Shown: in pieces, positions 34,660 to 57,156 of the stretch
Layout: every line of letters begins with the position of its first letter
How positions within the stretch are numbered: position 1 is the stretch's first letter
From: Planctomycetota bacterium
Lineage (GTDB): Bacteria; Planctomycetota; MHYJ01; JACQXL01
Direction: 5' to 3'
NCBI GenBank assembly: GCA_016235865.1
Contig: JACRIK010000021.1
Location: 1 to 64,000 of the forward strand
DNA: 64,000 nt
Notes under the pieces: model-generated
What the model saw: only the letters and a program-made list of their open reading frames with translations
Told to the model about the DNA's origin: nothing
Database searches by the model: none
Made by a program: the position numbers and the translations under genes

Positions 34660-35589
34660 ATGCTTAATAGATTCATAATAATTATTGCCATTTTATTTAT
34701 TATCCTGACTGGAATAATTATTTACACGGTTTATTACCCGCCGGCCGGGGCGCAAAAGGTTGATTTGGGCAAGACCGTGCCTCTGGAACATCATAAAGAC
34801 ACACCTTCGGATTCCTTGAGGGTGGCTATCGGCGGGATTGTTTCACCCAGGGAGACCGCGGTTTATTACAACGACCTGCTGGCTTGTATCTCCGAGAAGA
34901 TAGACAAGCCGATTGTTATTGTCCAGCGAAGCAGTTATGTGGAGATTAACGACCTCTTGAAGAACGGGCAGGTTGATTGCGCCTTTGTTTGCAGCGGGCC
35001 GTATGTGGCGGCCCACGACGAATTCGGCGCGGAACTTTTGGTTGTTCCTGTAGTCAATGGAACGACCTTTTATTGTTCCTATATCATCGTGCATAAAGAC
35101 AGTCCGTTTCAAAGCATTAATGACCTGAGGGGTAAGAATTTTGCCATCAGCCAGGTGCTTTCTTCCACCGGACGGATTTATCCTGCTTACCTGGTTACCC
35201 GGAGGGATTCCACGATTGATGTTTTCTTTTCCAAGACCACCACCATACCCGGGCATGACAATATCATAAAGGCCGTGGCCGAGAAATGGATAGATGGCGG
35301 CGCGGTAAACAGCTTCGTCTGGGACTATATGGCGGAGACCCAGCCGAAATATACATCACAGACCAGGATTATCCACAAATCGCCACAGTGGGGCAACCCG
35401 CCTTTTATCGTCCGGAAAGACCTGGACGTAGGGTTGAAGAAGAAGTTGCAGGAAGTTCTTCTGAATATGCATACCCATCCTTCCGGCGGTAGTATTCTTA
35501 AAGAGAAACTTTTGATTGATAAATTCGTTGAAGGTGATGATAAGTGGTACAATCCTATCCGTGATATGCTAAAAGGGCATGCTAAATGA
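34660..35589 (+). CDS. PhnD-like periplasmic oxyanion-sensing protein (AioX-like), module 1
   Basis: 309 residues. N-terminal membrane anchor (FIIIIAILFIILTGIIIYTVY), then a PhnD/PF12974-type binding domain: 'DSLRVAIGGIVSPRETAVYYNDLL', 'VDCAFVCSGPYVA', 'YIIVHKDSPFQSINDLRGKNFA'. PhnD-like proteins bind phosph(on)ate, phosphite or As(III); AioX binds arsenite through a Cys. The Cys of 'CSG-Y' is shared with the module-2 paralogue. Its stop overlaps the kinase start (ATGA), so it probably feeds that sensor kinase rather than a transporter; no ABC genes are near. Confidence 0.82.
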   Translation: MLNRFIIIIAILFIILTGIIIYTVYYPPAGAQKVDLGKTVPLEHHKDTPSDSLRVAIGGIVSPRETAVYYNDLLACISEKIDKPIVIVQRSSYVEINDLLKNGQVDCAFVCSGPYVAAHDEFGAELLVVPVVNGTTFYCSYIIVHKDSPFQSINDLRGKNFAISQVLSSTGRIYPAYLVTRRDSTIDVFFSKTTTIPGHDNIIKAVAEKWIDGGAVNSFVWDYMAETQPKYTSQTRIIHKSPQWGNPPFIVRKDLDVGLKKKLQEVLLNMHTHPSGGSILKEKLLIDKFVEGDDKWYNPIRDMLKGHAK

Positions 35590-37001
35590 ACAAGAATAGT
35601 TTACAAGCCAAATTTATATTTAGTGTTGCCTTTTTGATTATCCTGTTAGGACTGGCGGTATTGCTTGTGATTACCGTAATTTACCGGCAGGAACTTTCTG
35701 CGGAATTGCGGCATAAGGGATTTTCCACGGGACGGCTTCTGTCGCTGAACCTGATTGACCCGATTATGACCAATAATATCGTTAATCTGCACCAGATTAT
35801 CCAGGATGTGAAAGAGGCGGACAAGGATGTGGCCTATATTTTTGTGGTTAATCCCGGCGGTAGCGAAGTCCTGGCGCATACCTTTGACAAGGGATTCCCG
35901 ATGGACTTATTGAAATCCGGTTTTCTTACGCCCCAGCAGGACTCGAGCATAAAAATACTTGATACTAAGGAAGGTGTTATTCACGATATTGCCACGCCGA
36001 TTTTAGGCGGAACAATCGGAACAGTTCATATCGGCGTTTCCGAGTCGTCAATCAGGTCCGTTCTTAACAAGAGCACTCTGACCCTGTCTCTTATCACATT
36101 GGGTGTTCTTTCACTTGGCTTGTTTGTTTTCTATTTCCTGGTAAATCAGGCCGTCAGGCCGATTAGAGAAATGACCAGCGCCGCCAAAGCCATCGGCGAG
36201 GGCGACCTGACGGTTAAGGTTGAAGTTACCACCAGTGATGAAATCGGCATACTCGCCGAGACATTAAACCAGATGAGCGATAAGTTATTCCAGGCATACG
36301 AAGACCTGAAATCCGCCAAGACGCAATTAGACCGGGCCAACCGCCTGGCTTCGTTGGGGCAGTTTACGGCCGGTATCGCCCACGAGGTTAATAACCCTCT
36401 GGGCGGGATGCTTTTAACGGCCCGTCAGTTATTACGGGACCCGGCATTAAATAGCGCGGAGCGGGAACAATTAGAAATCATCCTGCGCGGGCTGATGAGG
36501 GTGGAATCCATTGTTAAGCAGTTGCTGACTATCTCGGACCATAGACCTTTTGCGCCGGTACCGGCGTCTTTGTCTGAACTTATACGGGAATCTCTTTTGT
36601 TATTCCAGCACCGGTTGGATGAACAATCCATAAAAGTTAATAATGAGTTAGCCGGCAGGGATGAAGAGATTATGGCTGAGCCGGTACAGCTTCAGCAGGT
36701 ATTTACTAATGTGATTAAAAACGCCATTGATGCCATGCCCTATGGCGGTAAACTCACCATTGGTTCCATCACGGATAATAAGAGCATCCATATTCGGATA
36801 CACGATACCGGTAAAGGAATGGACGAGAGGACAATGCATCATATTTTTGAGCCGTTCTTTACCACCAAAGAAGCGGGTAAAGGACAGGGGTTGGGATTAT
36901 CTGTCAGTTACAGTATTATCCAGCGTCATAAAGGTGATATTAAGATTACCAGCTGTCCCAATGAAGGGACTGCGGTAACAATTATTTTGCCAAACGCATA
37001 A
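35586..37001 (+). CDS. HAMP-domain sensor histidine kinase, module 1
   Basis: 471 residues. Two membrane segments (IFSVAFLIILLGLAVLLVITVIY; ~160-180) flank a periplasmic sensor region; HAMP ('QAVRPIREMTSAAKAIGEGDLTV'); H-box 'TAGIAHEVNNPLGGM' (phospho-His ~250); HATPase boxes 'VIKNAIDAMP', 'DTGKGMDE', 'GKGQGLGLSVS'. NtrB-class organisation. Overlaps the upstream PhnD-like gene by 4 bp and precedes its NtrC-type regulator by 3 bp. Confidence 0.93.
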   Translation: MNKNSLQAKFIFSVAFLIILLGLAVLLVITVIYRQELSAELRHKGFSTGRLLSLNLIDPIMTNNIVNLHQIIQDVKEADKDVAYIFVVNPGGSEVLAHTFDKGFPMDLLKSGFLTPQQDSSIKILDTKEGVIHDIATPILGGTIGTVHIGVSESSIRSVLNKSTLTLSLITLGVLSLGLFVFYFLVNQAVRPIREMTSAAKAIGEGDLTVKVEVTTSDEIGILAETLNQMSDKLFQAYEDLKSAKTQLDRANRLASLGQFTAGIAHEVNNPLGGMLLTARQLLRDPALNSAEREQLEIILRGLMRVESIVKQLLTISDHRPFAPVPASLSELIRESLLLFQHRLDEQSIKVNNELAGRDEEIMAEPVQLQQVFTNVIKNAIDAMPYGGKLTIGSITDNKSIHIRIHDTGKGMDERTMHHIFEPFFTTKEAGKGQGLGLSVSYSIIQRHKGDIKITSCPNEGTAVTIILPNA

Positions 37002-37004
37002 ATT

Positions 37005-38354
37005 ATGAACAAGAGAGTAATACTTATCGCCGAAGATGACGAAATAATGCGTTCGGCGCTGACCAATGCCTTGTCCCGGGAGGGGTACGAGGTAAGAACC
37101 GCCATTGACGGTTCAGAGGCCTGGGAGCAATACCATACCAACGACATTGACCTGGTTTTAGCCGACATCAAAATGCCCAAGATGGACGGGATTGAATTGC
37201 TTAAGGAAATAAAGAAAACCAGCTATGAAACCATCGTGATACTTATGACCGCGCACGGCACGATTCCTGACGCGGTAGAGGCCATAAAATTAGGCGCCTA
37301 CGATTATATCACCAAGCCGTTCCTGATTGAGGAGCTTTTGATGATAATCCAGCGCGCTTTTGAATTGTACCTGCTTACTGATAAGACAAGTGAGGTGGAT
37401 AAATTTCATAATATCGTCGGCCGGAATAAGGAAATGCAGAAAGTTTACCAGCTCATAGAAACCATTGCCCCGGGCGATAGCTCGGTGGTAATTTACGGTG
37501 AAACCGGCTCAGGTAAAGAGCTGATTGCCGAAGCCATCCATTATATGAGCAAGCGAAAGGACAAGCCGTTCATCAAAATCAGTTGCGGCGGTTTTCCTGA
37601 AACGCTCCTGGAAAGCGAACTCTTCGGGCACGAGAAGGGGGCCTTTACCGGCGCGTCAGAGCGCAAGACCGGGCGCTTTGAACTGGCCAAGGACGGTACT
37701 TTACTGCTGGATGATATTGATGATTTGTCTTTGTCTGCCCAGGTAAAACTGCTTCGTTTTATGCAGGAAAAGAAATTTGAACGGGTCGGCGGTATTGAAA
37801 CCATTGAGATGGATGTCCGCATTGTTGCCGCAAGTAAAAAGGACTTGAGGCAGGAGGTTACTAAAGGAAGATTCCGGGAGGATTTATTCTATCGCCTGAA
37901 CGTAATTCCTATTTTTCTGCCGCCATTGCGGGAGAGAAGAGATGATATTCCTCTTTTAGCCAGGCATTTTCTTGGTCATTATTCAGAAACGCTCAATAAG
38001 AAGGTGGAAAGATTTTCTTCCCAGGCGCTTAATGCTTTGTTTGAATATGATTGGTCCGGTAATGTCAGGGAATTAGAAAATATTGTAGAACGGGCCGTGG
38101 CGCTCTGCAAAGGTTCGGAAATCACTCCGGAAGAGGTATTGCCTTCTCTTGGTTCCCGGAGGTCTTTACGGTCAGGGAAAATCATTATTAGCGCTGACTT
38201 AAAACCAGCCGGTGATGTGGTTAAGGAAACGGAAAAACAACACATCAAGAAAATCCTCAAGGAAACCGGCGGACAGAAGATAAAGGCGGCCGAGATTTTG
38301 GGCATCAGCCGTAAAACACTCTGGGAGAAAATCAGGGAATATAAGATAAAGTAA
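37005..38354 (+). CDS. NtrC-family sigma-54-dependent response regulator, module 1
   Basis: 449 residues. Receiver domain with 'AEDDE' and phospho-acceptor Asp in 'LVLADIKMPKMDG'; AAA+ domain with Walker A 'GETGSGKE', the sigma-54 contact loop 'GAFTGA', and 'GTLLLDDIDDL'; C-terminal Fis-type HTH 'KAAEILGISRKTLWEKIREY'. It should activate the sigma-54 promoter 650 bp downstream (38999). Confidence 0.95.
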   Translation: MNKRVILIAEDDEIMRSALTNALSREGYEVRTAIDGSEAWEQYHTNDIDLVLADIKMPKMDGIELLKEIKKTSYETIVILMTAHGTIPDAVEAIKLGAYDYITKPFLIEELLMIIQRAFELYLLTDKTSEVDKFHNIVGRNKEMQKVYQLIETIAPGDSSVVIYGETGSGKELIAEAIHYMSKRKDKPFIKISCGGFPETLLESELFGHEKGAFTGASERKTGRFELAKDGTLLLDDIDDLSLSAQVKLLRFMQEKKFERVGGIETIEMDVRIVAASKKDLRQEVTKGRFREDLFYRLNVIPIFLPPLRERRDDIPLLARHFLGHYSETLNKKVERFSSQALNALFEYDWSGNVRELENIVERAVALCKGSEITPEEVLPSLGSRRSLRSGKIIISADLKPAGDVVKETEKQHIKKILKETGGQKIKAAEILGISRKTLWEKIREYKIK

Positions 38355-38384: not shown

Positions 38385-38695
38385 CGAAATATAGGGGGAC
38401 TACACCTATCCCCCACCCCCACTACACCTCTCCCCCCTACCCCCTACCTCCCCCTCCCCATGTGTGGATATACCTCTGGTATCGGTATAAATATCCCCTC
38501 ATATTCTGTAAATATAACCCCGGCATAGGGTTAATATGTCTCTGGCGGCGTTATATCAACCCGCCCATACCATGTTGATAACCCTCTCGCATCGTGCAGA
38601 TATGCCTCTGGCGCTGCTATAAACACCCTCTGGCAATCGGTTGATATGCCTGATGGTGCCTTATAAACACCTTCTCACGGTGGGTTGATATGTCT
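38385..38695. repeat. 22-bp-period degenerate array 4
   Basis: Begins with a C-rich tract holding GGGGGACTACACC (cf. GGGGGGCTACACC in array 3), then alternating 22-mers such as GATATGCCTCTGGCGCTGCT+AT and AAACACCCTCTGGCAATCGG+TT. More degenerate than arrays 1-3 and effectively a 44-bp dimer. It lies between regulator 1 and its sigma-54 promoter. Confidence 0.75.
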
Positions 38696-38787
38696 CTCAT
38701 ACCTGTCCCGGCCTGCCCGATGTCCACGATGAAAGACCTCTATGAACATAATAGTAACATACTATTGTTAGAACCCTTACCAAACAG

Positions 38788-38880
38788 ATGTTACATTATC
38801 GTAACATTTATATCTTATCTGCTTGATATTAAATGCGTTATAATAATTTACTGCAGTCAAATGTTACTATTTCGTAACAT
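38788..38880 (+). promoter_or_regulatory. Two identical ATGTTAC-N6-GTAACAT operators
   Basis: Sites at 38788-38807 and 38861-38880, both perfect 7-bp inverted repeats with N6. Centres are 73 bp apart, about seven helical turns. They lie 120-210 bp upstream of the sigma-54 promoter, where NtrC-type upstream activator sites are normally found. A related TAACA-N6-TGTTA is at 38755-38770. Confidence 0.75.
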
Positions 38881-38964
38881 CTACCCGGTTAATCTGTCTA
38901 TTCTACCTTACGGTCTCTTATATTTTTGTTGTTTCCAACCTATTATACGCCATAGTGATATAAT

Positions 38965-39014
38965 TCACTGTGACATTTTCCACTGTTTTCAGGCAATCTG
39001 GCATACCATTTGCA
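38965..39014 (+). promoter_or_regulatory. Sigma-54 promoter of module 1 with TCACTGTGA box
   Basis: TGGCAT-N5-TTGC: GG at 39000-39001 and GC at 39012-39013, the exact -24/-12 spacing. TCACTGTGA at 38965-38973 lies 35 nt upstream. Predicted start near 39025, leaving a 142-nt leader containing TCACAGTGA (39124-39132). Confidence 0.8.
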
Positions 39015-39166: not shown

Positions 39167-39706
39167 ATGTTCGAGAATCTGAAATTGAGCGCTCTGCCGG
39201 TGCGGATCAAAGTAATGATTACTGGCTTCCTATTGGTCATGGCCTTGGGTTATCTGATGTGTGTGGTAAATGTTTATCTGGTAACCAACTTTTCCATTAA
39301 TGGGGTAATTGAACATTATCGGGGAACTCAGATTGCCGAAAGCACTCCTTCAACTGGCGGGCAGCCCGCGGCTCCAGCCGTGGAGTCAGAGATTCAATAT
39401 CCCAAACTGCCGGTGGAAATGGTCCGGGTTTCCCACATCCATCTGATGACCTATGATATGATTTTATTGTTCGTCTGCCTGATATTCCTGCTGAGCGATT
39501 TCCCGGTCTGGCTGAAAACGGCCCTGACCACTCCGCCCTGGCTGCTGATTCCGCTGGACTTGGGATGCGGCTGGCTGGTCTGGAAGGTCTGGACGCCGGC
39601 GGCCTACGGCCATATAATCTTCGGGGCGTTGCTGGCCGTGTGCTTCTTCGGCGCAATCGGGTTTTCATTGATGGATATGTGGCTGAAGAAAACATCAAAT
39701 AAATAA
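39167..39706 (+). CDS. Four-helix membrane protein, first gene of module 1
   Basis: 179 residues with about four membrane segments (residues ~15-38, ~95-115, ~120-135, ~148-168). 'RVSHIHLMTYDM' supplies two His at the start of TM2 and 'AAYGHIIFGA' a third at TM4, which could bind haem or quinone, but no CxxCH is present. Periplasmic loop Pro/Ala-rich. Placed under the sigma-54 promoter and before the porin and flavoprotein; possibly the membrane entry point for electrons. Family not recognised. Confidence 0.65.
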   Translation: MFENLKLSALPVRIKVMITGFLLVMALGYLMCVVNVYLVTNFSINGVIEHYRGTQIAESTPSTGGQPAAPAVESEIQYPKLPVEMVRVSHIHLMTYDMILLFVCLIFLLSDFPVWLKTALTTPPWLLIPLDLGCGWLVWKVWTPAAYGHIIFGALLAVCFFGAIGFSLMDMWLKKTSNK

Positions 39707-39728
39707 TAAGGACGCTATGAAATTGGTG

Positions 39729-39858
39729 GCCCCGAAAGCATTCGGGACCATCTAACTCGCTGTAACGACCAGAGGTCTAACAGCGATAACCCCGATGTCG
39801 CTACGCTCATCGGGATAAGAGGCTGTAACACTCCTTTGTCGCTAACAGCCTCTAAGAA
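39729..39858 (+). repeat. Tandem compound TAAC/TAAG hairpin elements ahead of porin 1
   Basis: Copy 1: CCCGAA/TTCGGG, TCTA, ACTCGCTGT ... ACAGCGATAAC (39755-39786), with inner GACC-AGA-GGTC. Copy 2: CCCGAT/ATCGGG, ATAAG, AGAGGCTGT/ACAGCCTCT (39818-39853), AAGAAAGAGAGG. The only double copy in the window. The 318-bp gap 39707-40024 holds these and the hairpins described next. Confidence 0.8.
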
Positions 39859-39897
39859 AGAGAGGTGTCCGGTTGTCGTTATGGGGTCTCGGCCCAT

Positions 39898-40012
39898 GAC
39901 GCAGGAGGATATTGGGAATGGAGGAGCAAGGGGACGCTACCTTCTTCCTGGCACGAGGCGCCAGGTTTCTGTTTCTTCTGGAAACAGGAATGTCCTACAG
40001 TTTCAATAAGGA
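39898..40012 (+). promoter_or_regulatory. Structured 5' leader of porin 1
   Basis: GGAC (39932-39935) and GTCC (39991-39994) enclose CCTGGC-ACGAG-GC-GCCAGG-like and CTGTTTC-TTCTG-GAAACAG hairpins; RBS AAGGAGG follows. The hairpin with a CACGAGGCG loop recurs in the leader of porin 2 with compensating stem changes (CCTGTC..GACAGG). Confidence 0.5.
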
Positions 40013-40024
40013 GGGAATTAGAAC

Positions 40025-41197
40025 ATGGTAAAAAAAGGATTGTTTATCTTGGTGGGGCTGATGCTGATTATCGGCTCAAGCGTGACCGCTGAGGACAAAA
40101 AGCCGACCAAAGAAGGCACAAATATGGCATTTGAACTCAATTTGCGTATCCGCAACAATGTGGATGAGGATGTTGTTTCTGACCAGGGATTTCAAATATA
40201 TGAAATGGAATTGTTTCTTGATTCTACGGTCAATGATAATGCCTCGGTATTTGTAGAGTATCCACTTGCCCACAAAAACGCTCTTAACCTGGGCAATGCT
40301 TGGTTGGACCTGCATAAAGCCGGCGAATTAGCCGCAACAGAACAGACCGGATTAATGATAGGCAACTTTGCGCCGCTGGTTGGTTATCTCAACTATGACG
40401 ATAACCAGAGTTGGGCTTATGGCGGACGGACGACCACCAACACTACCCTTATGAGAGGACAATCTATTGATAGCCAGAAAGTGAGAGACAGACAATTGGG
40501 CGTTGCCGGCGGGTACAAAATTAATGATAGTTTCTTTGCCCAGGTTCATCTCTTTGACGGCAGCGGTCCGATTGAAAAAGCCGGCGGTGCGGATAACGAC
40601 AAAAAGGTTGATGCCGCCACGAGAGTCCAGTACACCATGCCTAATAATTTAGGTAAGGTCGGCGTAGGATATTGGGTTTCACCGGGTACCGATGGGGCGA
40701 CAGCCAACACTGCGGGCACCCAATTTGGTGGCGCTGGAGCAAAACACCCGCGTACTATAGAACGTACTGTGGTTTACTTTAAGTATCCTAATGTTAACCA
40801 GGCAACGCTTCCTGATTTCTCTTTAGGCGGTAAACCTTTTATGGTCTATGGAGAATATATGCAGGGGACAGCCAAGGCCGAAAAACGTGCCGGTGTTCCG
40901 GCCAGTTTACAGGTGGACACCGATTTTACCAGTTACTATCTGGAAGGCAATTTCCGGCTCCCGCTTTTTATGGAAAACAATAAAGTAGTCGGGGTATTAC
41001 GTTATGACTATTGGGACCCTGACAAGGATAAGAGTTCAAACACCTTACAGGCAGTTACGCCATCTGTGAAATGGGAATTCCAAAACAATATGTATCTAAC
41101 AGTTGGATGGGAATGGTACTTTAGCAATGGGACCAAGGCTGTGGTTCCAGAGAGAGATAACGACCGTCTCGCTGTTGAATTGGCAGTATGGTTCTAA
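40025..41197 (+). CDS. Outer-membrane porin-like beta-barrel, module 1
   Basis: 390 residues. Signal peptide (LFILVGLMLIIGSSVTA-ED), then alternating amphipathic strands rich in Tyr/Trp/Gly, and a terminal strand 'LAVELAVWF' ending in Phe, the BAM-recognised C-terminus. Likely a passive or anion-selective pore supplying the periplasmic redox proteins of the module. RBS AAGGAGG. A hairpin follows at 41214-41244. Confidence 0.82.
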   Translation: MVKKGLFILVGLMLIIGSSVTAEDKKPTKEGTNMAFELNLRIRNNVDEDVVSDQGFQIYEMELFLDSTVNDNASVFVEYPLAHKNALNLGNAWLDLHKAGELAATEQTGLMIGNFAPLVGYLNYDDNQSWAYGGRTTTNTTLMRGQSIDSQKVRDRQLGVAGGYKINDSFFAQVHLFDGSGPIEKAGGADNDKKVDAATRVQYTMPNNLGKVGVGYWVSPGTDGATANTAGTQFGGAGAKHPRTIERTVVYFKYPNVNQATLPDFSLGGKPFMVYGEYMQGTAKAEKRAGVPASLQVDTDFTSYYLEGNFRLPLFMENNKVVGVLRYDYWDPDKDKSSNTLQAVTPSVKWEFQNNMYLTVGWEWYFSNGTKAVVPERDNDRLAVELAVWF

Positions 41198-41213
41198 AAA
41201 CCAGATAAATAGC

Positions 41214-41244
41214 GCAGGTGGCGGTGACAAATACCGCCACCTGC
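41214..41244 (+). terminator. Hairpin after porin 1
   Basis: Perfect 12-bp stem GCAGGTGGCGGT / ACCGCCACCTGC, loop GACAAAT, followed by TTCTAT. Probably attenuates transcription into the flavoprotein gene. Confidence 0.6.
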
Positions 41245-41290
41245 TTCTATGTTAACCCGATATGTATATTAGTGTAAAAGGAGACAAGTT

Positions 41291-42400
41291 ATGTTTGATA
41301 AAAAAGGATATTTTATCCTGACGATGGCGGTGCCGGCCCTGGTGGCCACGACCGCCGATAGGGCGTTTGCCGAAACTTTCCTGACCCATGAGCAGGCGCT
41401 TGAGTTCGCGTTCGGTAAGGAAGCCAAGAGCGAGACAGAGGTTAAGTCGCTTACCCCGGAGCAGAAAACCGAGTTCCAGAAGAAACTGGGTTTCCCTTTT
41501 GACCCCAATAAAACAGATTTCACATTCTATAAGGGTTTGGTTAATGGCGAGGTCGTGATGTATGCGTATATTGACGTGGTGCCGGGCAAGTGGGGCCCGA
41601 TTACCTATGTTATTGTCATTACGCCCGAAGGCAAGGTCAGGGATATGTCCGTCACCGAACTGATGGAAAGACGCGGCCGGCCCGTCAAGGAACGGCGATT
41701 CCTGGACCAGTTCATCGGTAAAACCACCGAATCAAACATGGTTCTAAATAAGGATATTAAGCAGGTAGCCGGCGCGACAATTTCGTCAACCGGGATGAAC
41801 AACGGCGTGCGAAAAGTCCTGGCGTTATTCAAACATTTCTATCCGCCGGCTGAGGTAATCAACAAGACCGATGAGGTGCTCAAGAATGTATTTCCCAAGG
41901 AAGCCAAAGTAAAATCAGAGGCAGTGACTATTCAGGAAAAGGATATGGAGGGCCTAAAGAAACAATATGGCGCCGCCGTCCAATTCCTGCCGGCTGAGAA
42001 ACTGGTTGTCTATGTCGATGAAAAGGAGCCAACACCGTCCGTCTCCGCGTTAACCTATTCTGTAAAGGGGAAGAATAACAGCACGGTGAATTATCTGGTG
42101 GGATTATCACCGGATGAGAAGATAAATCAATGCTATATCCTTTCGTTGACCGACCCGAAGGATAATCCGGTGGCAGACAAGGCATTTCTGGAGCAGTTTA
42201 ACGGCAAAGGGCTGGAGGAACTTTTACAGTTGAACCTGGAAAAGGATATCAAGAATGCCGAAGCGCTGTCAAATGTATCCCAGAACTTTGTGCAGGGACT
42301 CAGGAAGTCGTTGATATTTGTCAAGACGCTGAAAAACAACGGGAAACAGCAGGGTGCTTCTGACCCTGCAGCGCCGGCGGATAAATCAGCCAGTAAATAG
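41291..42400 (+). CDS. Exported FMN-binding flavoprotein
   Basis: 369 residues. Signal peptide ending ADRAFA-ET. First FMN_bind domain (~60-185) with 'VAGATISSTGMNNG', the motif whose Thr/Ser receives FMN covalently from ApbE (compare NqrC/RnfG 'SGAT'). A second, similar domain (~215-355, 'GLSPDEKINQCYILSLTDPKDNP...FLEQFNGKG') ends in 'NAEALSNVSQNFVQGLRK', without the GAT motif, so it probably carries no flavin. An extracytoplasmic electron carrier. The next gene is apbE. Confidence 0.88.
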   Translation: MFDKKGYFILTMAVPALVATTADRAFAETFLTHEQALEFAFGKEAKSETEVKSLTPEQKTEFQKKLGFPFDPNKTDFTFYKGLVNGEVVMYAYIDVVPGKWGPITYVIVITPEGKVRDMSVTELMERRGRPVKERRFLDQFIGKTTESNMVLNKDIKQVAGATISSTGMNNGVRKVLALFKHFYPPAEVINKTDEVLKNVFPKEAKVKSEAVTIQEKDMEGLKKQYGAAVQFLPAEKLVVYVDEKEPTPSVSALTYSVKGKNNSTVNYLVGLSPDEKINQCYILSLTDPKDNPVADKAFLEQFNGKGLEELLQLNLEKDIKNAEALSNVSQNFVQGLRKSLIFVKTLKNNGKQQGASDPAAPADKSASK

Positions 42401-42410
42401 GATATTGAAT

Positions 42411-43469
42411 ATGCTTGCAGTGGATAAAAAACCGGTTCAGGGGCAATCCATGCCTTGTTTCAGGCAGGTGCGTTTTCTGATGAACACCTTTGTCAAGGTG
42501 GTTATCTATGAGGATGACTCTGCCAAGGCAGAGCGGGCGATGAATTACGCCTTTGACGAGATGAAAAGGCTGGAGGCAATGATGAGCCGGTTTCAGCCGG
42601 ATAGTCAAGTCTTCTTGATTAATCAATCCGCCGGACAAGCCGAATCTGTCCGGGTTAGTCCTGAGGTTATGTCTGTTTTGGAGGAATCAATCAGGATTAG
42701 CCGGCTGACACAGGGGGCGTTTGACATAACCATTGCCCCCTTAATGAACCTTTGGAGTTCGGTAAGCGCATTGGGGCGATTCCCGATCGGGGCCGAATTA
42801 AATGATGTCCTGCCGCTGGTCAATTATCAGGCGATAAAGATTGATCGGATTGATCAAACCGTCCGGCTGCCTGATAAGGGAATAGCTATTGACCTGGGCG
42901 GGATTGGCAAGGGCTACGCGATTGACCGCGTGATTTTCATCCTGAAATCAGCGGGTATCAAAGACGCCTTGATTGATGTCGGGGGAAATATCTGTGTGAT
43001 GGGCGATGCCCCGTCAGAAAAAGGATGGAGTATCGGTATTCAGCATCCACTTAATGAAACACAAGTCGTGGCCGCCATAAACCTGGGAAACGAGGCCATG
43101 GCTACCTCAGGCGGTTATGAAAGGTTTTTTACGGTTAATAACCGTAAATTGTGCCACATTATCAATCCATCTGATGGCAACCCGGTCCATAATAATGTCT
43201 TAAGCGTAAGTATTATTTCCGGGTCGGCTATATTAGGTGACGCCCTTTCCACTGCGGTTTTTGTTCTCGGTGTTGAAAAAGGCATTGCATTGATGGACAA
43301 GTTCAAAGATGTCGAGGTTGTTATTATCCATCGCACCCAGCCCTTGCGTGCAAGGGCTGGTCAGCCCCTGCTCGCAGGGGCTGGACACGGTCAGTCCAGG
43401 GAAGATTCTTCTGTGTTTCAGGCGGTTTGTTCCGAAGGCCTTAAAGGCAGAATAAACTTTAGGGTTTAA
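42411..43469 (+). CDS. apbE: FAD:protein FMN transferase ApbE
   Basis: 352 residues. 'MNTFVKVVIY', 'AMMSRFQPDSQVFLINQSAGQ', 'GAFDITIAPLMNLW', 'IDLGGIGKGYAIDRV', 'DALIDVGGNICVMG' and 'CHIINPSDGNPV' are ApbE signatures, including the Mg/FAD-binding Asp/Thr region. It attaches FMN to the preceding flavoprotein. ATG 42411 preferred over 42354, which would overlap the flavoprotein gene by 47 bp. No signal or lipobox. Near the C-terminus, residues ~309-325 are encoded by two adjacent palindromes (43337-43383) and look inserted. Confidence 0.93.
   Translation: MLAVDKKPVQGQSMPCFRQVRFLMNTFVKVVIYEDDSAKAERAMNYAFDEMKRLEAMMSRFQPDSQVFLINQSAGQAESVRVSPEVMSVLEESIRISRLTQGAFDITIAPLMNLWSSVSALGRFPIGAELNDVLPLVNYQAIKIDRIDQTVRLPDKGIAIDLGGIGKGYAIDRVIFILKSAGIKDALIDVGGNICVMGDAPSEKGWSIGIQHPLNETQVVAAINLGNEAMATSGGYERFFTVNNRKLCHIINPSDGNPVHNNVLSVSIISGSAILGDALSTAVFVLGVEKGIALMDKFKDVEVVIIHRTQPLRARAGQPLLAGAGHGQSREDSSVFQAVCSEGLKGRINFRV
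43337..43383. repeat. Double palindrome inside apbE
   Basis: CCAGCCCTTG-CGTG-CAAGGGCTGG followed at once by CAGCCCCTG-CTCG-CAGGGGCTG. Both perfect; in frame near the C-terminus. Confidence 0.8.
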
Positions 43470-43489
43470 TAATACCAGGAGGTGAGGAG

Positions 43490-44155
43490 ATGATTTGCAT
43501 AATCAGAATTCAGGCACAGGAAAAACCGGAACTGCTCTGGAACGATGTCTTATCCAAAAAGGATAAGTTGCAGGAGGTTCTCAACGGCAAGGGGAAAATA
43601 CTCTACCTTTCCAAGCGTCGTAACTATAACGAGGTGAGTTTGTTTGTCCATGTGGCCGATGCGAATATACTTGGATGTTTTATAGCCAATCACCTGGCGA
43701 AACTTGAGGGCGTGACCGGCATCTGGCTGATTAATATGCTTAAGCCCGTGTTTCATCCGTTGCCCAATGATGCGGGAAAGATGAAACGTTATACGGTGAC
43801 GATAAAAGCATACTCGCCGAAACTGGGTGAAATCTACAGCGCGCTGGCTAATCTGGCGCCCTCGGATGATGTTTCTGTCGGTTATCTGGCTTATACCTGC
43901 CACCTTTTTGGTGACTGCATCCAGATTTCCCTGCAGGCGCCGGACAGCGTTAGGATACAGAAATGTATCGACGAAGTTATTAGCAAGATACCCGGCGTTT
44001 TGCGCACCACGCTTTGCGAGATAGAAAGAACCCATCCATTTGTTGCTTACGAGGAGTGGCAGAAATATATTTCCAGGAATGCGGTGCTGGTGGATTGGGA
44101 TGACCGGCATATGGTGGCTCAGTTTTCTACTTATGGAAAGCAGGATTATAAATAA
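43490..44155 (+). CDS. Duplicated RAM/Lrp-ligand-like domain protein, module 1
   Basis: 221 residues, about 80% alike to the module-2 protein at 56512. Two ferredoxin-like halves: 'MICIIRIQAQEKPELLW...HLAKLEGVTGIWLINMLKPVFH' and 'KRYTVTIKAYSPKLGEIYSALANL...IPGVLRTTLCEIERTHP'. The spacing resembles Lrp/AsnC RAM domains or the NapD chaperone fold, without a DNA-binding domain. RBS AGGAGGTGAGG. Ends each module, so perhaps a maturation or ligand-sensing accessory; function not established. Confidence 0.62.
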   Translation: MICIIRIQAQEKPELLWNDVLSKKDKLQEVLNGKGKILYLSKRRNYNEVSLFVHVADANILGCFIANHLAKLEGVTGIWLINMLKPVFHPLPNDAGKMKRYTVTIKAYSPKLGEIYSALANLAPSDDVSVGYLAYTCHLFGDCIQISLQAPDSVRIQKCIDEVISKIPGVLRTTLCEIERTHPFVAYEEWQKYISRNAVLVDWDDRHMVAQFSTYGKQDYK

Positions 44156-44499: not shown

Positions 44500-44510
44500 G
44501 TAACAAACTT

Positions 44511-46855: not shown

Positions 46856-48241
46856 ATGAAAAAACATATATTGGTCATAGACGATGAAGAGATAGAGCGG
46901 ATTTCCATTCAGGCGCAACTTACCTCGGAGGGTTACCGGGTTACTACCTGCCCTGAGGTAATCTGCGCTTTGAAGGAACTGGGAAAAGACCCGGATGGAT
47001 ACGATATCATCCTCTGCGACATCAGAATGCCCGGTCTGGACGGCTATGCCTTTTTGGAACAGATTAAGGCGAAATTCCCCGCGCTGACTGTGATAATGAT
47101 GACCGCTTACGGGACGATTGAGGGGGCGGTCAAGTCAATGCGCCACGGCGCCTATGACTATATTACCAAGCCATTCACGATTGACGAACTGTCCATAAAA
47201 CTGGAACATGCCCTGGAATACCGCAATAAGGTCCAGGAAAATATTATGCTTAAAGAAGCGCTGAAGGGCAAGCACCAATTTTCCAATCTGGTCGGGAAGA
47301 GCAAGGCAATGCAGGGGATATTTGATAAGATTCAGGTGGTGGCTCCGACTAATACTACAATCCTGCTTCAGGGCGAAACCGGCTCTGGTAAAGAAGTGAT
47401 TGCCTCGGCGATTCACTACAATAGCCCGCGAAAGGATAAACCGTTAATCAAGGTGAGTTGCGCCATGCTTAGTAAAGAGGTGCTGGAAAGCGAATTGTTC
47501 GGTCACGAGGCCGGCTCATTTACCGGCGCCATCAAGATGAAAAAGGGCCGGTTTGAATTGGCCAATACCGGCACGCTTTTCCTGGACGAGGTTGATGATA
47601 TTCCCTACGAGCTTCAGGTCAAACTTCTTCGGGTGATTGAGCAGAAGGCGTTTGAGCGGGTGGGCGGCGAGACGGCTATCCAGTCAGACGTCCGCCTTAT
47701 TGCCGCCTCAAAATATCCACTTCAGGAACTGGTCAAACAGGGTAAGTTCCGGGACGACCTCTATTACCGCCTGGCCGTGGTTACCGTTAATATCCCGCCT
47801 TTAAGGGAAAGAAAAGAGGATATTCCGCTTCTGGTGAACTACTTCGTCAATAAATATCGCAACGAGATTAGACAGGAAACAAGAGATAATACAAGCGATA
47901 TGCAGATTCCGGATGAGGTGTTAAGATATCTAATGGATTACGACTGGCCCGGCAATATCCGGGAATTAGAAAATGTAATTAAACACATCCTGACGGTAAA
48001 TAAGACCGGACAACTCAAAGTCGGCGACCTGCCGGAATCGGTGGTTATCCCGCGGCTCCTTGACCTGAAATCCCAGGGGACGGTAAAACTCTCTTCTGTA
48101 GTGGGCAAGGTAGAACGCGAAGTGATAGAATGGGCGCTCCAGAAGGCCGGGGGCAACCAGACCAAGGCCGCCGAGATATTGGGCATACCCAGAACGACCC
48201 TAAGAGAAAAGATGGCCAGCATTATTCATAAACATTTATAA
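46856..48241 (+). CDS. NtrC-family sigma-54-dependent response regulator, module 2
   Basis: 461 residues. Receiver 'VIDDEE' and 'IILCDIRMPGLDG'; AAA+ Walker A 'GETGSGKE'; the sigma-54 contact loop reads GSFTGA instead of GAFTGA; C-terminal Fis HTH 'TKAAEILGIPRTTLREKM'. Expected to act on the sigma-54 promoter at 49169. A strong terminator-like hairpin follows. Confidence 0.94.
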   Translation: MKKHILVIDDEEIERISIQAQLTSEGYRVTTCPEVICALKELGKDPDGYDIILCDIRMPGLDGYAFLEQIKAKFPALTVIMMTAYGTIEGAVKSMRHGAYDYITKPFTIDELSIKLEHALEYRNKVQENIMLKEALKGKHQFSNLVGKSKAMQGIFDKIQVVAPTNTTILLQGETGSGKEVIASAIHYNSPRKDKPLIKVSCAMLSKEVLESELFGHEAGSFTGAIKMKKGRFELANTGTLFLDEVDDIPYELQVKLLRVIEQKAFERVGGETAIQSDVRLIAASKYPLQELVKQGKFRDDLYYRLAVVTVNIPPLRERKEDIPLLVNYFVNKYRNEIRQETRDNTSDMQIPDEVLRYLMDYDWPGNIRELENVIKHILTVNKTGQLKVGDLPESVVIPRLLDLKSQGTVKLSSVVGKVEREVIEWALQKAGGNQTKAAEILGIPRTTLREKMASIIHKHL

Positions 48242-48594: not shown

Positions 48595-48918
48595 TGGCAT
48601 CATCTTCACACTTGATATGGGTCATCTTCACGCTTGATATGGGTCGTCTTCACGCTTGATATGGGTCATCTTCACACTTGATATGGGTCGTCTTCACGCT
48701 TGATATGGGTCGTCTTCACACTTGATATGGGTCATCTTCACGCTTGATATGGGTCATCTTCACACTTGATATGGGTCGTCTTCACGCTTGATATGGGTCA
48801 TCTTCACACTTGATATGGGTCATCTTCACACTTGATATGGGTCATCTTCACGCTTGGTATGGGTCATCTTCACACTGGGTGGGGGTCATCTTACCCCAGG
48901 GGGGGCTACACCCCCCTG
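48595..48918. repeat. 22-bp tandem repeat array 3 (about 14 units)
   Basis: Unit GGGTCATCTTCACGCTTGAT plus AT; the core TGGGTCATCTTCAC is the reverse complement of array 2's core. Units alternate CGC/CAC and CAT/CGT. Its right end (48877-48918) is identical in reverse complement to the left end of array 2. Located between regulator 2 and its sigma-54 promoter, as array 4 is for regulator 1. Confidence 0.95.
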
Positions 48919-49012
48919 ACCAATGTCATAACCTGCACCTTTTGCAACATTTTGCCACTCCTGGACCTGACCCACCAAGTAGCCCTATTATTAGTAAAAT
49001 AACAGACCAAAA

Positions 49013-49039
49013 TCCGTCATATACACACAAACTGACGGA
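49013..49039 (+). promoter_or_regulatory. TCCGTCA-N13-TGACGGA inverted repeat, candidate activator site
   Basis: Perfect 7-bp arms, about 145 bp upstream of the sigma-54 promoter of module 2, the usual place for an NtrC-type enhancer. Differs from the module-1 operator. Confidence 0.55.
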
Positions 49040-49135
49040 ATAAGGTCATAGAATAGTCATAATTAAGGAATATAATCACTATTATTAGTAATTTTTATCA
49101 CTTTCTACCCATTATATTACAATAAGTTACGGCAA

Positions 49136-49184
49136 TCACTGTGAAATTTTTAGTTTATTAGGCATATCTGGCACGATATTTGCA
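49136..49184 (+). promoter_or_regulatory. Sigma-54 promoter of module 2 with TCACTGTGA box
   Basis: TGGCACG-N4-TTGCA: GG at 49170-49171, GC at 49182-49183. TCACTGTGA at 49136-49144 is 34-35 nt upstream, followed by AATTTT as in module 1. Predicted start near 49195, only two bases before the rex ATG. Confidence 0.85.
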
Positions 49185-55524: not shown

Positions 55525-56509
55525 TTACGGGCGGCGGATTAATTATCTGAGAATATCTGTCACCGACCGGTGTAATTTCCGATGCCGGTATTGCCGGCCC
55601 GCGGAGCCACATCCCGCCTTGCGGGACGCTTATGGCGGGGCAGAAGATGTTTCTCTCCTGCGGCAGGATGAACTCCTGTCTTATGAGGAAATAATGCAGG
55701 TGGTCAGGGCCGCCATTAAGTTAGGCGTAACTAAATTCAGAATCACCGGCGGAGAACCTCTGACCAGGCCGGGAATTATCGGATTTTTGCAAACTATGGC
55801 CGGAACACCCGGCGTTGAATGGCTGTCATTGACCACCAATGGGTTCTTTGTAAAACAGTATGCTCATCAATTGGGAAAAATCGGTTTGAACGGTATCAAC
55901 ATCAGTGTTAATTCCTTAAAAGATGATACCTTCAGCCGGCTGACCGGTGTGGCTGGGTTAGGCCGGGTATGGGAGGGGATTGAGGCATTATTGCAATCAG
56001 GCCAGGAGAATATCAAGCTAAATACCGTGTTGATGCGCGGATTTAATGATGATGAAGCACTGGATTTTGCCTGCCTGACAATTAACCGGCCGATTGTCAT
56101 CCGATTCATTGAATATATGCCCTGTGGTAATTGGCAGGGAAGTGGTTTTGACCAGACTATTCCGGCGGAGGACCTGATTGACCGTATCAGCGCTATTGGC
56201 AGGTTAATACCGGTTAACAAACAGATGGGCAATGGCCCGGCTCGGTATTATCAATTGCTCGGTGCCAGAGGGTTGATCGGTTTTATCACGCCGGTTAGCC
56301 AGCCGTTCTGTGAGCGGTGTAATCGGCTGCGGCTCACCGCAGACGGGCATCTTAAACCATGCTTGCTCTCGACGGAAAGTGTTGACCTTAAGCCGGTTCT
56401 TAGGCACGGTGAGGGAAATCTTAATGAGGCCTTTTCTGAAGCAACATCATTTAAGCCCCGGGTTCATCAGGAAGAACAATTAAACGTGATGTCAAGGATA
56501 GGAGGTTGA
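55499..56509 (+). CDS. moaA: GTP 3',8-cyclase MoaA
   Basis: 336 residues. Radical-SAM CxxxCxxC in 'CNFRCRYCRP', GGEP in 'ITGGEPLTRPG', C-terminal cluster 'CERCNRLRLTADGHLKPC' and the conserved C-terminal Gly-Gly. First step of molybdenum cofactor synthesis, placed in the operon of a molybdoenzyme. After 'CRYCRPAEP' residues ~38-47 (HPALRDAYGG) appear inserted and are encoded by a palindrome CCCGCC...GGCGGG (55613-55639). Confidence 0.95.
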   Translation: MTQNVLIDNYGRRINYLRISVTDRCNFRCRYCRPAEPHPALRDAYGGAEDVSLLRQDELLSYEEIMQVVRAAIKLGVTKFRITGGEPLTRPGIIGFLQTMAGTPGVEWLSLTTNGFFVKQYAHQLGKIGLNGINISVNSLKDDTFSRLTGVAGLGRVWEGIEALLQSGQENIKLNTVLMRGFNDDEALDFACLTINRPIVIRFIEYMPCGNWQGSGFDQTIPAEDLIDRISAIGRLIPVNKQMGNGPARYYQLLGARGLIGFITPVSQPFCERCNRLRLTADGHLKPCLLSTESVDLKPVLRHGEGNLNEAFSEATSFKPRVHQEEQLNVMSRIGG

Positions 56510-56511
56510 TT

Positions 56512-57156
56512 GTGATAGTAATTATCAGAATTCAGGCCCAGGAAAAACCGGAATTGCTCTGGAATGATATTTTAGCCAATAAGGATAGATTGCAGAATGT
56601 TCTCAATGGCAAAGGAAGGATACTGTATCTTTCCAAACGCCGTAACTACCGCGAGGTTAGTTTATTTGTCCACGTGGCCGACACCAATATCCTGGGTGAT
56701 TTTATTGCCGGGCATCTGGCTAAACTTGAGGGGGTGACAGGTATCTGGTTGATTAATATGCTCAAACCCGTATTTCACCCTCTGCCGAAAGGCGTTGAGC
56801 AGATGAAACGTTATACGGTAACGATAAAGGCGTTTTCGCCGAAGTTAAGTGAAATTTACGGCGTGCTGGTCAATCTGCCGCCTGCGGATAATGTCTCCCT
56901 CGGCTATTTGGCTTATACCTGCCACCTTTTTGGCGACTGCATCCAGATTTCTCTGCAGGCGCCTGATGACACCGGGATGCAGAAATATGTGGATGAGGTC
57001 GTCGGCAAGATACCCGGAGTTTTGCGCACCACGCTTTGCGAGATAGAAAGAACCCATCCGTTTGTTTCTTACGAGGAATGGCAGAAATATATTTCCAAAA
57101 ATTCAGTGCTGGTAGACTGGGATGAGCAGCATATGGTCGCCCAGTTCCAGAATTAG
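56512..57156 (+). CDS. Duplicated RAM/Lrp-ligand-like domain protein, module 2
   Basis: 214 residues; GTG start at 56512 chosen because it gives MIVIIRIQAQ, matching MICIIRIQAQ of the module-1 protein; RBS AGGAGG. Two ferredoxin-like halves as in the paralogue. It directly follows moaA, making a NapD-like chaperone or cofactor-related role conceivable, but no proof. No DNA-binding domain. Confidence 0.62.
   Translation: MIVIIRIQAQEKPELLWNDILANKDRLQNVLNGKGRILYLSKRRNYREVSLFVHVADTNILGDFIAGHLAKLEGVTGIWLINMLKPVFHPLPKGVEQMKRYTVTIKAFSPKLSEIYGVLVNLPPADNVSLGYLAYTCHLFGDCIQISLQAPDDTGMQKYVDEVVGKIPGVLRTTLCEIERTHPFVSYEEWQKYISKNSVLVDWDEQHMVAQFQN

Follow-up and report, generated by a model that had tools for sequence, protein, structure and literature searches.

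In arsenite oxidisers, AioR recognises the consensus GTTN10AAC, with GTTCGGATTTCCGAAC as its DNase I footprint (PMC5335332). Two tandem palindromes 100-200 nt upstream, together with a -24/-12 promoter, accompany 12 of the 12 aioBA operons that have aioXSR and are absent from other aioBA operons (PMC3834237). Module 1 of the window, by which we mean the whole 64,000-nucleotide stretch of DNA analysed here, resembles these systems in several respects. Its sensor (PhnD-like), kinase and NtrC-type regulator stand in the order of AioXSR/ArxXSR, tandem palindromes of equal geometry precede a sigma-54 promoter, the regulator carries a helix of the SR[KT]TLWEK type, and the nearest solved structure to the sensor SBP1 is ArrX (E 2.5e-40), followed by AioX. 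It also departs from them: the regulator RR1 falls outside the AioR/ArxR clade, the target is a flavin-type operon and not an arsenite oxidase, the operators are spaced by 73 bp as against mostly 31-44 bp, and of the seven residues that form the AioX pocket in PMC5908839, SBP1 keeps five, with the changes S163T and D210N and with Cys106 retained. A literature search returned no paper linking AioX with planctomycetes and ApbE.

We propose, with a probability of about 0.72, that the operator pair acts as a tandem UAS of the module-1 sigma-54 promoter, driven by SBP1-HK1-RR1 with RR1 as the putative binder. That it is a tandem sigma-54 enhancer, whichever protein binds, is very probable.

The operator pair of module 1

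Module 1 runs from SBP1, HK1 and RR1 through the operators and the promoter to five genes at 39167-44155 (Table 1), among which a domain search found no molybdoenzyme. The last of these genes (221 aa) has a paralogue of 216 aa at 56506-57156, downstream of module 2, and a homologue closes the corresponding operon of G003. This genome is the only relative with the module-1 operon and shows no regulator of the RR1 kind in the 9.6 kb examined; because the operon sits close to the end of its contig and no regulator genes accompany it, it is unusable as a footprint.

As originally predicted, two identical 20-bp inverted repeats, both exact, precede the promoter with their centres 73 bp apart, which by arithmetic amounts to 6.95 turns at 10.5 bp. 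Exact copies of ATGTTAC-N6-GTAACAT occur only at these two positions in the 2.67-Mb host genome. The predicted distance of 120-210 bp to the sigma-54 promoter TGGCATACCATTTGCA is likewise borne out, the measured distance being 119-211 bp; counted from the first promoter base, the 16-bp operator cores, GTTACATTATCGTAAC and GTTACTATTTCGTAAC, begin at -209 and -136. The repeats thus stand in the range expected of a sigma-54 UAS, about 100-250 bp ahead of its -24/-12 promoter. When the 812-bp intergenic stretch was subjected to 5000 dinucleotide-preserving shuffles, at least two inverted repeats with 7-bp arms and an N6 gap appeared in 0.34% of them, and two repeats with identical arm and gap in none (0/5000). 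The operator pair is far above chance expectation.

The core GTTAC-N6-GTAAC conforms to the AioR consensus GTT-N10-AAC. The TyrR box is another NtrC-family enhancer with an N6 inverted repeat. A Desulfovibrio enhancer of the same family reads yGTCA-N6-TGACr (PMC4641369); module 1 shares with such enhancers the inverted repeat with a six-base spacer upstream of a sigma-54 promoter, and differs from them in its half-site, GTTAC.

The half-order variant TAACA-N6-TGTTA, which had been predicted 35 bp upstream, is indeed present at 38755-38770, at that distance from operator 1 centre to centre, but it has a second copy at 44501. It is better read, and more simply, as part of a decayed third site, because positions 38746-38760 match 38793-38807 in register (87% identity over 15 bases, 47 bp upstream). 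Degenerate short tandem repeats (e.g. cttgatatgggtcatcttcac) were seen by eye upstream of both promoters, at 38400-38700 and 48700-48880 of the window.

Table 1. Features of the two modules (window coordinates) and of related places in the host genome and its relatives (contig coordinates, C; locus numbers, L)
Feature	Position	Strand	Sequence or remark
SBP1, PhnD-like sensor (PF12974)	34660..35589	+	best PDB matches ArrX, then AioX
HK1, sensor histidine kinase	35586..37001	+	from domain search
RR1, NtrC-type response regulator	37005..38354	+	receiver, sigma-54 activation domain, Fis HTH; helix ISRKTLWEKIREYKI
Candidate decayed third site, or lone GTAACAT half-site in register	38741..38760	.	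weak evidence; overlaps TAACA-N6-TGTTA
Operator 1	38788..38807	.	ATGTTACATTATCGTAACAT; exact ATGTTAC-N6-GTAACAT
Operator 2	38861..38880	.	ATGTTACTATTTCGTAACAT; exact ATGTTAC-N6-GTAACAT
Sigma-54 -24/-12 promoter of module 1	38999..39014	+	TGGCATACCATTTGCA
179-aa protein, first gene of module 1	39167..39706	+	no Pfam hit; membrane protein by eye only; homologue in G003
390-aa protein	40025..41197	+	no Pfam hit; resembles a porin by eye only; G003 operon has a homologue
FMN-binding-domain protein	41291..42400	+	from domain search
ApbE-like flavin transferase	42354..43469	+	start codon uncertain
221-aa protein, last gene of module 1	43490..44155	+	paralogue at 56506-57156
RR2, NtrC-type response regulator of module 2	46856..48241	+	helix IPRTTLREKM
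Inverted repeat TCCGTCA-N13-TGACGGA	49013..49039	.	re-readable as GAC-N8-GTC at 49005-49018 and 49034-49047
Sigma-54 promoter of module 2	49169..49184	+	TGGCACGATATTTGCA
Host promoters with a GTTAC-type site	C2:34164, C12:44259, C18:127905, C19:84431, C19:93281, module 1, C37:9815
Host TPR-type genes upstream of a sigma-54 promoter that has GTTAC-type sites	C18:127619, C19:84708, C19:93457, C37:8820		three at exactly -142
TPR-type activator places	L238-L264; host C18:127619, C19:84708, C19:93457, C21:201886, C37:8820

Regulator tree and helix-to-operator pairing

Does the operator identify RR1 as an AioR orthologue? A tree of 59 regulators unites the seven AioR/ArxR-type proteins in a single clade (100/100). 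RR1 is placed elsewhere, in a group with weak support (89/90) that also contains RR2 with the regulator of locus L103, the XSR regulators of the phylum of G296 (G296 included), and a clade of 18 further regulators from the phylum of the host. GTTAC-type sites are, moreover, found at loci of non-XSR regulators: among the 18 loci of this last clade, mostly with SRK-type helices, five carry a site with at most one mismatch and three an exact one, the expected number of exact sites in the 18 being 0.007-0.034. One of them (L039) has a regulator, tandem GTTAC sites, a sigma-54 promoter and pilin-like genes in that order. The tree and these sites together reject the view that the operator proves orthology with AioR, and the sites imply that the operator tracks a class of helices that extends beyond the AioR family.

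A tblastn search with SBP1 in plasmids gave 254 records, from which 17 loci were analysed, 16 of them with a recognisable regulator. The helix RK[TSN]LWEKM occurs at five of the 16, and at every one of these (5/5) the target operon is preceded by a GTTAC-type site (at most one mismatch); the helix RTTLWEKM occurs at the other 11, each with a GTTCG-type site at the same threshold (11/11). No crossover between helix class and half-site type was found among the 16 loci. Paired sites start mostly 31-33, 43 or 44 bp apart, and some second sites have two mismatches. A sensor search in 195 genomes of G296's phylum found the sensor in 23, at 25 places, of which 20 were analysed; an RK-helix NtrC-type regulator is present at 7/20. 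In G296 itself (6.3 Mb, helix ISRKTLWEKL) the core occurs once, as does the reversed-pattern control; a near-consensus TGGCAC-N5-TTGAA follows the core at 142 bp, and a gene for a protein with a terminal CxxCH motif region at 199 bp.

In a rank test over all 1024 five-mers, which was not blind in that the stretches of L188, L193, L194 and the proteobacterial loci had been chosen after the sites were seen, GTTAC was the unique top five-mer at RK-helix loci (7/11 with at most one mismatch, 3/11 exact) and GTTCG at RTT-helix loci (11/11 and 8/11). The four RK-helix loci without a GTTAC site at this threshold are L189, L190, L191 and L192; L190 and L191 have GTTTC-type palindromes in its place. 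The test left out L130 and L132 (near-copies of L076), L121 (upstream DNA absent) and L129 (regulator not found), as well as L098, L102, L103, L104, L105, L108, L111, L185 and RR2, whose helices belong to neither class, are cut or are unread. These sequence comparisons offer a helix-to-operator rule that would pair the RK helix with GTTAC and the RTT helix with GTTCG, the helix classes following lineage, so that few independent events lie behind the pairing.

The operator core elsewhere in the genome and its possible binders

In the host genome GTTAC-N6-GTAAC has nine exact copies at five places, against none for the reversed-pattern control (2.67 Mb searched). Each of the five is followed, in the correct orientation, by a near-perfect sigma-54 promoter, so the core recurs at other sigma-54 promoters, as a UAS would. 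Exact TGGCAYN5TTGCW promoters number 23, with 14 on the forward and nine on the reverse strand (control pattern: 1 and 2). For seven of them a GTTAC-type site (at most one mismatch) lies no farther than 420 bp upstream. The genome search proposed with the original prediction therefore recovers the core, one mismatch allowed, at six sigma-54 promoters besides that of module 1, but the full, exact 20-bp site at module 1 only. Other host promoters have other palindromes, such as TGCACAAG-N2-CTTGTGCA at C19:26340 and C19:33605. Short intergenic arrays of an ~11-bp unit, TTGTAACNTC, were noted at C1:1692, C3:423816, C14:52673 and 70660, C18:98162 and C35:20125.

For 13 of the 17 HTH_8 genes, RR1 included, an exact sigma-54 promoter of the same orientation follows no more than about 1.1 kb downstream (manual count), a pattern that favours the assignment of RR1 to the module-1 promoter and of RR2 to that of module 2. 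Among the 16 of 17 host HTH_8 helices read (L148 left out), RKTLW is confined to RR1 and one other regulator, and the latter has no GTTAC site (at most one mismatch) in the 12 kb around it.

The operator core also stands beside genes for a second kind of activator. Four of the seven GTTAC-site promoters lie downstream of genes for TPR-type activators of 679-732 residues with an AAA+ sigma-54 domain and a Fis HTH; three of the four belong to exact-core places, and the fourth to a sixth place whose core has one mismatch. Of three host proteins compared with domain models, two gave weak TPR matches, while the third was truncated where its locus ends. A search for such activators in 59 genomes gave 27 places in four genomes, 16 of them in G005 and five in the host. 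Of the 26 genes analysed in the host and its relatives (L242, without an ORF, left out), 23 have a sigma-54 promoter within 900 bp downstream, and for 13 a GTTAC-type site (at most one mismatch) was found downstream, mostly at -140 to -158. For most of these genes the promoter lies 118-145 bp downstream. These activators resemble the module-1 system in operator core and in promoter distance, and differ from it in a TPR-like input domain, in having neither receiver nor kinase, and in their targets. Their helices, e.g. LTRAGLYRKM, are unlike that of RR1, and since the same core stands beside them, the operator alone cannot name RR1 as its binder.

Conceivably, both kinds of activator bind, so that the output of SBP1-HK1-RR1 and a cytoplasmic TPR signal are integrated through one operator. 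We regard this as a tentative addition, compatible with RR1 as binder: the same core stands at both promoter sets, but operator likeness does not show cross-binding in the cell, and spacer and outer bases differ somewhat. It is rather unlikely that TPR-type activators are the main binders, with module 1 in their regulon and RR1 acting elsewhere. Half of the analysed TPR-type genes have the site, and three of the four host genes that precede such promoters have it at -142, close to the -136 of module-1 operator 2; yet no TPR-type gene adjoins module 1, the RR1 gene lies directly upstream, and XSR loci of other phyla show the same operator beside an RK-helix regulator.

A CRP/FNR-type HcpR, a NikR-type regulator or a GntR/TetR repressor on the operators is very improbable. 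The motifs of HcpR2 (GTAAC-N4-GTTAC; PMC1274295) and NikR (GTGTTAC-N13/14-GTAACAC; PMC545781) do contain GTAAC and GTTAC half-sites, but we reject HcpR2 for the opposite half-site order and NikR for its spacer of 13 or 14 bases against six here, and all five exact-core places in the host precede sigma-54 promoters. Nothing observed pointed to a GntR/TetR repressor, which falls short of a genome-wide exclusion. Least probable of all, functionless chance palindromes or dispersed repeats, which the many genome matches with one or two mismatches in the TTGTAACNTC arrays might suggest, are rejected by the shuffle test and by the location of the exact core only upstream of sigma-54 promoters, the arrays being a different class.

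Module 2 and the proposed wiring of the two modules

Module 2 contains the same three regulator kinds as module 1, followed by the promoter at 49169 and by Rex, 4Fe-4S, NrfD-like and molybdopterin genes; its sensor SBP2 keeps 7/7 AioX pocket residues. The nearest match to its molybdoenzyme among those compared (55% identical) is in a Chloroflexi MAG (L115), where it likewise follows a sensor-kinase pair; identity to the arx-type enzymes compared is ~30%. No GTTAC or GTTCG site was found in module 2, even when two mismatches were allowed. The inverted repeat TCCGTCA-N13-TGACGGA, which the original prediction placed at 49013, does lie there, before TGGCACGATATTTGCA. Its half-site centres, however, are 20 bp apart as against 11 bp in module-1-type operators, a spacing that appears to suit this class of NtrC-type proteins poorly. 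Two tandem GAC-N8-GTC sites are alternative candidates for RR2, the one at 49034 sitting inside the sole TGAC-N8-GTCA of the window, and the 13-bp repeat CTATTATTAGTAA at 48985 and 49079 (94 bp apart) may be another. A near-palindrome, WTCACWGTGA, occurs twice per module, at 38964, 39123, 49135 and 49913 of the window: upstream of both sigma-54 promoters, before the first module-1 gene and between rex and the 4Fe-4S gene of module 2. It might, as a guess, be a shared operator, possibly of Rex.

How might the operator pair switch on module 1? We infer RR1 binding, looping and the signal itself in the following scenario. Ligand-bound periplasmic SBP1 would signal through HK1 to RR1, whose dimers would bind the two GTTAC-N6-GTAAC sites on one helix face, about seven turns apart. 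RR1 would then assemble into an AAA+ ring, loop the DNA and open the sigma-54 polymerase at 38999, thereby turning on the operon from the 179-aa and 390-aa proteins through the FMN-binding and ApbE-like proteins to the 221-aa protein; TPR-type activators might provide additional input through the shared operator code. The position and the tandem layout, as in aio operons, argue for this scenario, as do the half-site ranks, the host places of the exact core and the promoters that follow most HTH_8 genes. Against it stand the recurrence of the core beside TPR-type activators with other helices, the placement of RR1 outside the AioR/ArxR clade, the loss of two of the seven pocket residues in SBP1, the 4/11 RK-helix loci that have no site (at most one mismatch) and the lack of such a regulator in the stretch of G003 examined.

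The original prediction also held that the two paralogous regulators have distinct enhancer sites, so that the modules can be signalled separately. The first part agrees with the differing helices of RR1 and RR2 and with the absence of the motif from module 2, but the operator is not private to one regulator. Separate signalling is correspondingly supported between modules 1 and 2 and not in general, given that the core recurs at promoters of other activators. Module 1 may thus be insulated from module 2 yet open to TPR-type activators. Going further, and more speculatively, GTTAC-N6-GTAAC could be common to two activator families in this lineage, oxyanion-type response regulators and TPR-type one-component activators, with module 1 as a logic node wired to the TPR regulon while insulated from module 2. 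On the reading that we prefer, with RR1 as the putative binder, a flavin-type operon of a little-known lineage would be tied to an oxyanion-type sensor by a readable enhancer code. If that code is shared with TPR-type activators, module 1 would offer a clean case for how enhancer-binding proteins with the same operator avoid cross-talk or use it.
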